Assembly (NCBI RefSeq): GCF_001189955.1
Contig: NZ_LFLT01000024.1
Span: 1-64,000 of the forward strand
DNA length: 64,000 nt
Source: Herbaspirillum chlorophenolicum
GTDB lineage: Bacteria; Pseudomonadota; Gammaproteobacteria; Burkholderiales; Burkholderiaceae_D
Direction: 5' to 3'
Shown here piece by piece: positions 7,141 to 63,447 of this stretch. Position 1 is the first letter of the stretch, and each line of letters starts with the position of its first letter. Below the pieces are notes generated by a model. The model did no database searches. It worked only from the letters and a program-made list of their open reading frames with translations, and was not told where the DNA came from. Made by a program: the position numbers and the translations under genes.

Positions 7141-7309
7141 CGGCTAAGTTTACACCATGTCGGCCCCGGCCCTATCGCCGCCGTCCCGCATCCAGACCGG
7201 CGTTACGGCGCATCAGCGAAGGCCGGCCTTCCTCGCCTGCCTCTTCCCACCCGGCAAGAGTCTTGTCATGGCGACGTTTCCTGGCGGCGGCCAATATGCC
7301 GTCCAGATT

Positions 7310-21081: not shown

Positions 21082-21158
21082 CGGGGTGTAGCTTAGCCTG
21101 GTAGAGCGCTACGTTCGGGACGTAGAGGCCGGAGGTTCGAATCCTCTCACCCCGACCA
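21082..21158 (+). tRNA. tRNA-Pro (anticodon CGG)
   Basis: A 77-nt cloverleaf with encoded CCA. The acceptor stem CGGGGTG pairs with CACCCCG; the anticodon stem CTACG/CGTAG encloses loop TTCGGGA, giving anticodon CGG for CCG codons; the T loop GGTTCGAATCC is standard. A strong terminator follows at 21166. Confidence 0.97.
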
Positions 21159-31344: not shown

Positions 31345-31537
31345 GATCAATAGTCTGGGAATGATGGTTAGCGCCATTTTGACGCAAAGCGGCAAGCACC
31401 TGAGTGAATTAAATTCTTCCGAGGGCTCCGGGCATTCATGTTGCCGCCACCATCACGGTACAGCGTTCGCCACTTGTAGATTGAACGCTGTCGATCTCCA
31501 TGTTTAAAGCAAAAGAATCTATTCGCACGCCTCGGGG

Positions 31538-31649
31538 ACGTCGTGCGGGTGCTATTGAGGATGAGATGCAAGGCGCAAAACGCAGCCAGACTGGAGTCTG
31601 GCGAGGCTTTGCAACGCAGCAGATCGCCTCAATAGCGCCCGCACGACGT
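31538..31649. repeat. Palindromic element A (variable stems, conserved core)
   Basis: A 112-bp element ending inside the argJ stop codon region. Outer arms of 23 bases (31538-31560 and 31627-31649) pair with one G/T mismatch. The core has TGCAAGGC at 31567, GCAAAACGCAGCC to 31587, an inner hairpin GCCAGACT/AGTCTGGC (31585-31592, 31595-31602), and GAGGCTTTGCAACGC at 31603-31617. TGCAAGGC can pair with GCTTTGCA. The core is near-identical to that of element B (34579), but the stems differ. Not recognised as a named repeat family. Confidence 0.85.
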
Positions 31650-32885
31650 TCACGAGCGGTAGTCCGCGTTGATGGAAACGTAGTCATGCGACAAGTCGCA
31701 GGTCCAGATCGAGGCCTTGGCATTGCCGCGCGCCAGCTTCACGCGCACCACGATCTCGGCCTTCTTCATGACGCGCTGGCCGTCTTCCTCGCGGTAGTCG
31801 GGGTTGCGGCCGCCGTCCTTGGCGACCCAGACGTCATCCAGCCACAGGTTGATCTTCGACACGTCCAGGTCGTCCACGCCGGCGTAGCCGATGGCGGCCA
31901 GGATGCGGCCCAGGTTCGGGTCGGAGGCGAAGAAGGCGGTCTTGACCAGCGGCGAGTGGCCGATCGAGTAGGCGATCTGGCGGCATTCCTCGACGCTCTT
32001 GCCGTCTTCCACGGCCACTTCGATGAACTTGGTGGCGCCTTCGCCGTCGCGCACGATCTGGTGCGCCAGGTTCTGCGACAGTTCGGTGACGGCCGCGGCC
32101 AGTTGCTTGTACTCGGCGCTGTCGGCGCTGGTGATGTCCAGCTCGCCGGCGCCGGTGGCGATCAGCATGAAGGAGTCGTTGGTCGAGGTGTCGCCATCGA
32201 TGGTGATGCAGTTGAACGAATGGTCGGCGGCATCCTTGACCAGTTGGTTCAGGAGCGCCTGCGGAACCTTCGCATCGAAAGCCAGGAAGCCCAGCATGGT
32301 CGCCATGTTGGGCTTGATCATGCCGGCGCCCTTGCTGATGCCGGTCATTACGACCTGCTTGCCGCCGATAGTGACCGTACGCGATGCCGCCTTGGGCTGG
32401 GTGTCGGTGGTCATGATGGATTCGGCGGCGTTGAACCAGTTGTCGGCCTTCAGGTTGCCGATGGCCTGCGGCAAGCCGGCGGTGATGCGGTCGACCGGCA
32501 GCGGCTCCAGGATCACGCCGGTCGAGAACGGCAGGATCTGCGACGGCGCGCAGCCCAGCAGCTTGGCCAGGGCGTCACAGGTAGCGTTGGCACGCTTCAG
32601 GCCCTCTTCGCCGGTGCCGGCGTTGGCATTGCCGGTGTTGATCACCAGTGCACGGATCGGCGCGCCGTCCTTGACTTGTTCGAGGTGGGTCTTGCAGACC
32701 TGCACCGGCGCCGCGCAGAAGCGGTTCTTGGTGAACACCCCGGCGACCGTGGCCGTGGGCGCCAGCTTCAGCACCAGCAAGTCTTTACGGTTGGCCTTGC
32801 GCACGCCCGCCTCGGCATGGCCGAGTTCGATGCCGGCGACGGCTTTCAGGTCGGAAGAGACGGGAATCGGGGAATTGACGGCCAT
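31650..32885 (-). CDS. argJ: Bifunctional ornithine acetyltransferase / N-acetylglutamate synthase
   Basis: A 411-residue enzyme recycling the acetyl group from N-acetylornithine to glutamate in arginine synthesis. It is made as a precursor that cuts itself at the conserved Ala-Thr bond; the site is visible in [16 protein letters not shown] around residues 180-195, giving alpha and beta chains. The C-terminus VSINADYRS is the family end. It stands in the secA-to-mutT block, and its stop codon touches palindromic element A. Confidence 0.96.
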
Positions 32886-34568: not shown

Positions 34569-34578
34569 CTTCTTTTTA

Positions 34579-34741
34579 AGAACCTGTTCGGGATCTCGGC
34601 GGGAGTTGGGCAAATGTCATTTCAGGATGGGCTGCAAGGCGCAAAACGCAGCCGGGCCGGTTGGCCCGGCGAGGCTTTGCAACGCCGCAGACCGCCTGAA
34701 AGGGCATTTGGACAACCCCGACGAGATTCCGAACAGGTTCT
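34579..34741. repeat. Palindromic element B (variable stems, conserved core)
   Basis: A 163-bp element between the secA stop and its terminator. Outer arms 34579-34626 and 34695-34741 are complementary at most positions (few mismatches, one bulge). The core carries TGCAAGGC at 34633, GCAAAACGCAGCC to 34653, an inner hairpin GCCGGGCC/GGCCCGGC (34651-34658, 34663-34670) and GAGGCTTTGCAACGC at 34671-34685. The core sequence equals that of element A apart from the inner stem and a few bases. Confidence 0.88.
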
Positions 34742-34759
34742 AAGGCCAGCGCGGCTGGA

Positions 34760-63103: not shown

Positions 63104-63117
63104 TATCCGAAATCAAT

Positions 63118-63447
63118 GAAGCAGACCGGTAGGCCGGATTCTGTTACGGCGGTTGCCCGCTATGACAGCCATTCCTCTAGGCGCCGGATTGCTCCGGCGC
63201 TCAAGCTTTCTACCCGCACGCTCCGCGAGCCGCATCACCGCGTGCCTATTTGAAATTGCTCCGAGTGGAGGTTACCGCGTTTCACCGTAACTTAATACGC
63301 TCGTCTCTGTGGCCCTGTTCCTCGCCTTATACCGGCTTGCGCCGGCTTTCGGCGGACGGCCGTTAACCGTCACCCTGCTCTGTGGAGTCCGGACCTTCCT
63401 CCCGCCGCGCCCTTGCGGACACGGCCAGCGGCTGTCTGGTCTGCATC
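63118..63447 (-). ncRNA. rnpB: RNase P RNA (M1-type, bacterial class A)
   Basis: The catalytic RNA that trims tRNA 5' ends. On the minus strand the conserved segments are in order: GAGGAAGGTCCGGACTCC near the 5' end (CR I), GAGCAGGGTGACGGTTAACG, ACAGAGACGAGCG-type region, GGTGAAACGCGGTAACC (the GGU-binding area) and the 3' AACAGAATCCGGC (CR V). The 5' GCAGACC pairs with 3' GGTCTGC to close P1. Ends are placed by P1 and may be off by a few bases. Confidence 0.95.

Follow-up and report, generated by a model that had tools for sequence, protein, structure and literature searches.

A structured core common to MITE-like palindromic elements with unrelated ends, found in Herbaspirillum chlorophenolicum, behind argJ-like and secA-like genes, and in other bacteria

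The window analysed here is the whole stretch of 64,000 nucleotides at positions 1 to 64,000 of contig NZ_LFLT01000024.1 of Herbaspirillum chlorophenolicum. It contains two palindromic elements, A and B. Element A overlaps the end of a minus-strand open reading frame of 411 amino acids that we take to be argJ, and extends into the last codons of that gene. Element B sits just downstream of a gene that is presumably secA. The features are:

31531 to 31656, plus strand: element A, whole palindrome, 126 bp, overlapping the argJ stop codon
31568 to 31575, plus strand: left conserved motif of element A, GCAAGGCG
31585 to 31602, plus strand: variable inner hairpin P3 of element A (GCC AGACT GG AGTCT GGC)
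31611 to 31617, plus strand: right conserved motif of element A, GCAACGC
31650 to 32885, minus strand: argJ-like gene, 411 amino acids, with its stop codon inside the right arm of A
34577 to 34579, no strand: TAA next to GAACC at the left end of B (locus L004), likely target duplication
34579 to 34741, plus strand: element B, MITE-like palindrome of 163 bp with ends AGAACCTGTTC/GAACAGGTTCT
34634 to 34641, plus strand: left conserved motif of element B, GCAAGGCG
34679 to 34685, plus strand: right conserved motif of element B, GCAACGC
34741 to 34743, no strand: TAA next to GGTTC at the right end of B (locus L004)

A and B have in common the core GCAAGGCGCAAAACGCAGCC ... GGCGAGGCTTTGCAACGC, while their stems and arms are not the same. 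One 21-base strand of this core occurs twice in the window, compared to a mean of 0.00 over 100 shuffles, which agrees with the original prediction that the core strands of the two elements are identical. The same prediction placed the palindrome of A at 31538 to 31649; the palindrome is real and longer, with arms at 31531-31560 and 31627-31656 that are 90% complementary. The arms of B are 92% complementary across the outer 25 nt, so that the outer arms, unlike between the elements, are self-complementary in each as had been proposed, although imperfectly. Both inner stems, AGACT/AGTCT in A and GGGCC/GGCCC in B, pair, and three of their five pairs differ rather than all of them: A-T, A-T and T-A in A are replaced by G-C, G-C and C-G in B, and two pairs are unchanged. 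The folding energy of A was −83.2 kcal/mol compared to −42.9±4.0 in shuffles (z = −10.1), and that of B was −110.3 (z = −12.2). Since the z-score is similar for the opposite strand of A (−73.7 kcal/mol, z = −10.8), energy by itself picks out no strand.

The folding of many copies revealed a shared plan in which outer arms enclose a loop whose left side carries CAAGGCG and whose right side carries CAACGC, followed by a helix P2 and a hairpin P3. Between P2 and P3 most families have a small internal loop, with CRCA on the left, GAG or AAG on the right and often a bulged A; this second loop is missing in one hairpin of the elements of a relative, G025. The CAAGGCG/CAACGC loop is constant, whereas P2, P3 and the arms vary, and bulges are preserved in most families folded. 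The left motif GCAAGGCG is invariant across 74 aligned cores, most of which were gathered with a pattern already demanding that motif, and the invariance of the core motifs is therefore partly built into the search. P3 of element A corresponds to the covarying helix 3 of that alignment and carries one compensated A-T to G-C change among orthologues of A.

The 20-base core strand had 28 matches with up to three mismatches in the genome of H. chlorophenolicum, compared to none for the reversed control, and some of the three-mismatch matches resemble chance. A gapped core pattern was present in 12 of 149 genomes, this genome included, and in at least 119 stretches of named genomes; among the matches listed, these belong by title mostly to Comamonadaceae and other Burkholderiales. 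The original prediction also proposed a covariance-model search. The model R1, built on the 74 cores and with E-values that are rough, found 31 matches in the own genome, two of them at 31548-31636 in A and 34614-34704 in B, both of which are among its building sequences. Within the genus, 28 of 34 genomes had an R1 match, and in a sample from the phylum 41 of 249 did, the own genome being part of both counts. All five genomes behind loci with unexpected labels matched as well, having been picked because they already did; four of these are metagenome-assembled. Loci of other phyla that stand on metagenome-assembled contigs, labelled Bacteroidetes, Chlamydiae, Desulfovibrionaceae and Desulfuromonas, may be misbinned. 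The record of Lujinxingia vulgaris names a strain, and its genome holds 31 matches. In the assembly labelled Bacteroidetes (G392, behind locus L096) at least 150 R1 matches were counted, many with equal scores, an apparent recent burst. Eight contigs of the own genome (C2, C24, C35, C116, C124, C150, C171 and C177) have a B-type end no more than a few dozen bases from one of their termini, and copy numbers in this draft genome are thus probably lower bounds.

The core is found in families with different ends. Four arm types are present in the own genome: the B type, with ends GAACCTGTTC/GAACAGGTTC, the type of A, and two others. A longer class of about 260 to 275 bp, read closely in G113 and G025, holds a second, oppositely oriented hairpin within the same pair of ends, which places one core on each strand of these elements. 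In many longer loci a matching right end lies within about 170 nt, and this identifies them as elements of that length. A reading of the longer loci (L040, L061, L065 and others) as full-length insertion sequences was rejected, as ORF lists inspected by eye gave no obvious transposase behind the core. One locus of genome G017 (L034:1501-1646) carries two tandem cores 97 bp apart.

The prediction had raised the possibility of a hairpin used in mobility, and B and its relatives provide the evidence for movement. The whole of B is absent from the corresponding site in all six relatives inspected (G002, G021, G033, G003, G010 and G015), and in the own genome it lies between two copies of TAA, the last base of the left TAA doubling as the first A of the palindrome. 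At the B-less site of G021 (L399), 14 of 15 nt agree by eye with the right end of B; these may have been left by a lost copy or may agree by chance, and consequently not all six B-less sites need be original empty sites. Among 22 B-type copies the 3-bp flanks are identical in 10 and not identical in 12, and TNA stands on both sides in 12. Six further palindromes of 36 to 125 bp in the own genome (L209, L213, L219, L221, L222 and L223) have B-type ends with the core missing or shortened, and look like centre deletions.

In G025 the elements have ends in common with a resident insertion sequence. The 10 elements fetched from this genome, 271 to 272 bp long, end in TAGAACCCATTTCATAAATAG (21 bp), and the same 21-bp end is found on 12 of 13 copies of an 859-bp insertion sequence with a DUF4096 transposase. 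At one end of this insertion sequence the 21 bp are identical in 11 of the 12 copies, the remaining copy having a single difference; the other end has one to three differences. We take DUF4096 transposases to belong to the IS5 family, whose habits TA or TNA targets would fit. Just inside the common ends, the sequences of the 272-bp element and of the insertion sequence are unlike, so that ends and core seem to be separate in history. This discordance also bears on the hypothesis that the core is a functionless leftover of an ancestral insertion sequence. Insertion sequences are a common source of MITEs according to the available text of PMC10969869, which favours such an origin, but the G025 elements and the insertion sequence differ next to the ends that the two have in common. 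Covariation around fixed loops in distant genomes, described below, suggests ongoing selection on the core, and we regard the leftover hypothesis as very unlikely.

Covariation was examined in two alignments. The first, A1, consists of 74 cores: 70 of 80 representatives, together with four cores of the own genome. Those omitted were L029 (for which B stands), the second cores of L034 and L154, L097, L107, L131 (from Kosakonia, with arms that are not self-complementary by eye), L137, L146, L150 and L170, and the row of L027 has misplaced ends and a gapped right side. The hand-drawn structure pairs in 90.0% of the cells of A1. Two-sided pair changes occurred in 162 cells, compared to 60.4±5.2 in shuffled alignments and at most 49 in slid versions, so that the proposed covariation check came out above both controls. 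Counted by pairs rather than by cells, two-sided changes showed no excess (9 pairs compared to 8.5 shuffled, and 10 in one slid version); the A1 signal thus rests on cell counts and score, in which inherited changes are counted repeatedly. In the second alignment, A2, made of six orthologues of A, 12 pairs had two-sided changes, compared to 6.6±1.5 in shuffled and no more than 2 in slid versions; further pair types were not in excess (16 compared to 17.3 shuffled).

Long palindromes are prone to template switching and to conversion of one arm by the other, and symmetry could be kept in this way with no selection on the fold; many arm pairs alter together in the A orthologues, and the short palindromes with B-type ends that look like centre deletions are in line with such events. 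A double-stranded palindrome, or one maintained by arm-to-arm conversion, should however be strand-symmetric. We aligned left with right arms using symmetric mismatch scores, which favour neither strand, and read the mismatches on the CAAGGCG...CAACGC strand. In the 118 elements with an arm alignment score of at least 40, out of 165 matches, 405 G·T and 70 A·C mismatches were counted; G·T exceeded A·C in 103 of the elements, fell below it in three and tied in 12. The excess remained when one element per cluster was counted. At 15 nt or more from the core the means were 54 G·T and 8 A·C, and at 30 nt or more they were 34.7 and 3.3 (16 clusters, mean of 200 draws), with more G·T in 15 clusters, fewer in none and one tie. 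Counted by cluster, G·T predominated in 15 of 16 and A·C in one. In finer clusterings G·T led in 31 of 37 clusters and trailed in 4, and led in 59 of 69 and trailed in 6; the ratios of G·T to A·C were near five. A second set, in which 31 of 59 loci were used and 28 went unrecognised by its pattern, gave 36 G·T and 13 A·C (10 clusters against 2 of 16); some of its types were already in the 118-element count, and it is not independent. The six A orthologues had only a moderate excess, 16 G·T (six of them one fixed pair) against 9 A·C. A further count, with pairs defined by RNA folding, was set aside because the definition favours G·T.

This strand-specific excess argues for selection on a folded single strand. 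Conversion should leave the strands equal, whereas G·T exceeded A·C five- to ten-fold, also at 30 nt or more from the core, and it should make bulges vanish, yet they are preserved in most families folded; we consider maintenance by conversion, with the fold unselected, improbable. Strand-biased mutation is less likely as a mimic, since the elements occur in both replication orientations. One specific strand, RNA or single-stranded DNA, thus appears to have been selected to fold, and the selected structure that had been predicted is supported by the covariation in the 74 cores, the compensated changes in the six orthologues and the strand-specific G·T excess. Purine-purine mismatches also outnumbered pyrimidine-pyrimidine ones, A·A over T·T included. 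Purine-rich mismatches suit RNA well, and G·A and G·G suit single-stranded DNA too.

The strand could accordingly be DNA, spreading like REPs and REPINs, with a Y1 (HUH) transposase recognising the imperfect hairpin of one strand. Mismatches of the G·A and G·G type are stable in DNA hairpins, and their enrichment here would suit one, as would the apparent selection of a single strand; the two inverted cores of the longer elements recall the two REPs of a REPIN, and all 34 genomes of the genus have a Y1_Tnp gene. These include the six genomes without an R1 match, and a Y1 or RAYT partner was judged unlikely because Y1_Tnp does not track the presence of the elements. REPs bear GTAG or CGTC tags, according to the available text of PMC3733652, and neither tag was seen at the hairpin foot in the conserved A1 columns, which cover the core and about 20 nt on each side. 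No leading- or lagging-strand bias was detected in three single-contig genomes (10/12, 9/9 and 10/13), the GC skew of one being weak; the model matches used were 22 of 23, 18 of 24 and 23 of 34, with one weak G025 match and the second hairpin of each double element set aside. Terminal repeats with TA or TNA flanks indicate a DDE enzyme instead. Taken together, spread as single-stranded DNA seems unlikely to us.

Where the elements lie was assessed with crude home-made gene calls for 153 of the 165 matches, and 112 of these 153 occupy gaps bounded by genes on both sides. At the element edge there is a stop codon of a long coding-like frame in 34 of 86 cases, compared to 15, 8, 8 and 4 of 86 at positions 25, 50, 75 and 100 nt further out. 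These observations, and the retention of A behind argJ described below, agree with the hypothesis that the elements are transcription terminators or stabilisers of 3' ends that turned useful behind genes, A being the terminator of argJ. Stop codons at the edge may have another cause, in that a TA-containing target resembles a stop and a TAA or TAG duplication keeps it; target choice and the loss of gene-breaking insertions can yield the same adjacency. A terminator has no need of a fixed CAAGGCG/CAACGC loop, and A and B, inspected by eye, have no run of T directly after them on either strand. We hold this hypothesis to be possible and rather doubtful. If the core acted as RNA inside host messages, a sense bias would be expected, and none was seen between co-directional genes by the crude gene calls: the core was on the gene strand in 25 cases and on the opposite strand in 40, at least four of the latter being the same argJ site, so that sense is not favoured.

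Element A differs from B in its history. The argJ-like gene was found in all 34 genomes of the genus, and A is retained behind it in six species, with arms that alter in compensated fashion. Among 21 argJ 3' ends that were read, 4 had A and 17 did not, a count that omits nine fetched loci and four genomes; two further A sites came from the gapped-pattern search. G002 is without A although its argJ is 98% identical. A target duplication is likely for B, and the arms of A end within argJ. A looks like a vertically kept copy rather than a recent insertion. Another palindrome lies behind argJ in 5 of the 17 ends without A. It stands just after the argJ stop in five related genomes (L197, L198, L199, L203 and L205), has the inner motif CTCGCC-stem-GGCTGCG in common with the core of A, and may be a distant family of the core. 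Near argJ in two of these relatives, Guanidine-II riboswitch matches above the gathering score were recorded (L199:276-322 and L197:3898-3944).

In comparison with known systems, the elements are closest to MITEs. According to the available text of PMC10969869, MITEs such as Correia/NEMIS, ERIC, RUP and those of Polaromonas are small and multi-copy with terminal inverted repeats, produce short target duplications, are mostly intergenic and would form hairpins when transcribed. The elements here resemble them in these respects. Their lengths (126 and 163 bp in the window, 271 to 272 bp in G025) fit the MITE range of less than about 500 bp, terminal inverted repeats are present in B and relatives, and B has both an insertion polymorphism (absent as a whole in six of six relatives) and a TAA/TAA duplication. 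They are unlike MITEs in that one structured core occurs across elements with unrelated ends and in several bacterial groups. Three loci with Polaromonas titles (L064, L079 and L147) carry the core. REP and REPIN sequences with their RAYT likewise have imperfect hairpins, a strand-specific signal and inverted pairs, the last found here in the longer elements. The present elements are much longer than REPs (126 to 272 bp) and have terminal repeats and flanks of the DDE type. From the IS5-type insertion sequences with DUF4096, whose 21-bp ends the G025 elements carry, they differ by having no transposase gene and by the sequence inside those ends. R178 and other Pseudomonas fluorescens repeats, compared by description only, are multi-copy and intergenic, some with internal inverted repeats (PMC2718517, available text).

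The prediction that no named family fits was upheld by Rfam, which at or above the gathering score matched the window only at RNase P RNA and tRNA (63114-63447, minus strand, and tRNA-Pro(CGG), 21082-21158, plus strand; both ordinary) and not at the elements; in six related loci nothing was found at the elements up to an E-value of 1. In the literature text searched, to which most subscription journals are outside coverage, the first 12 letters of the core, GCAAGGCGCAAA, had no match, and within the same coverage no paper title on MITE, REPIN, palindromic or Polaromonas elements described the core. Individual arm families may well be in print already. In the absence of an Rfam match, with REP tags that differ and MITEs known, some of them in Polaromonas (PMC10969869, available text), we class the elements as MITE-like, marked by a common structured core.

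We hypothesize that these are MITE-like non-autonomous DNA transposons whose ends and core have separate histories, and we consider this explanation as a whole fairly probable. The ends would be terminal inverted repeats of IS5-type insertion sequences, and we infer that a transposase of that type, made elsewhere, moves the elements in trans and duplicates TA or TNA targets. It counts against the explanation that an autonomous partner with B-type ends was looked for and not found in the own genome, where PF13340 is unmatched and the single PF01609 region lacks such ends. The inside would be an independent structured core, kept in elements with unrelated ends and acting in folded, single-stranded form with one polarity, RNA likelier than single-stranded DNA. 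Our guess is that a conserved host factor binds the core as RNA; alternatively, the core may perform a step of the element's own movement. A would be a copy fixed behind argJ that may form the 3' end of the gene. The bolder proposal, which we put forward tentatively, is that the core is an unnamed mobile structured nucleic acid, most likely RNA, riding on many unrelated pairs of IS5-type ends in several phyla, and surviving because a host factor recognises its fold or because it performs a needed step. If this is true, the core would be a parasite of parasites with a conserved functional RNA of its own.

Bacterial MITEs are usually viewed as decayed insertion sequences with unimportant insides. 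Here the inside is the conserved part, with a strand-specific fold found between unrelated ends in distant bacteria, and this makes testable the idea of a MITE that carries its own functional RNA or DNA structure; CAAGGCG...CAACGC is a clear motif to seek in transcript and protein-binding data. Searches of plasmid and phage sequences gave no match to B. An Acidovorax member of the family matched seven plasmid records, two of them over at least 80% of its length, and the core was also observed on two IMG/VR contigs, once on the first (L416:5114-5163) and twice on the second (L417:4785-4834 and 7218-7267).
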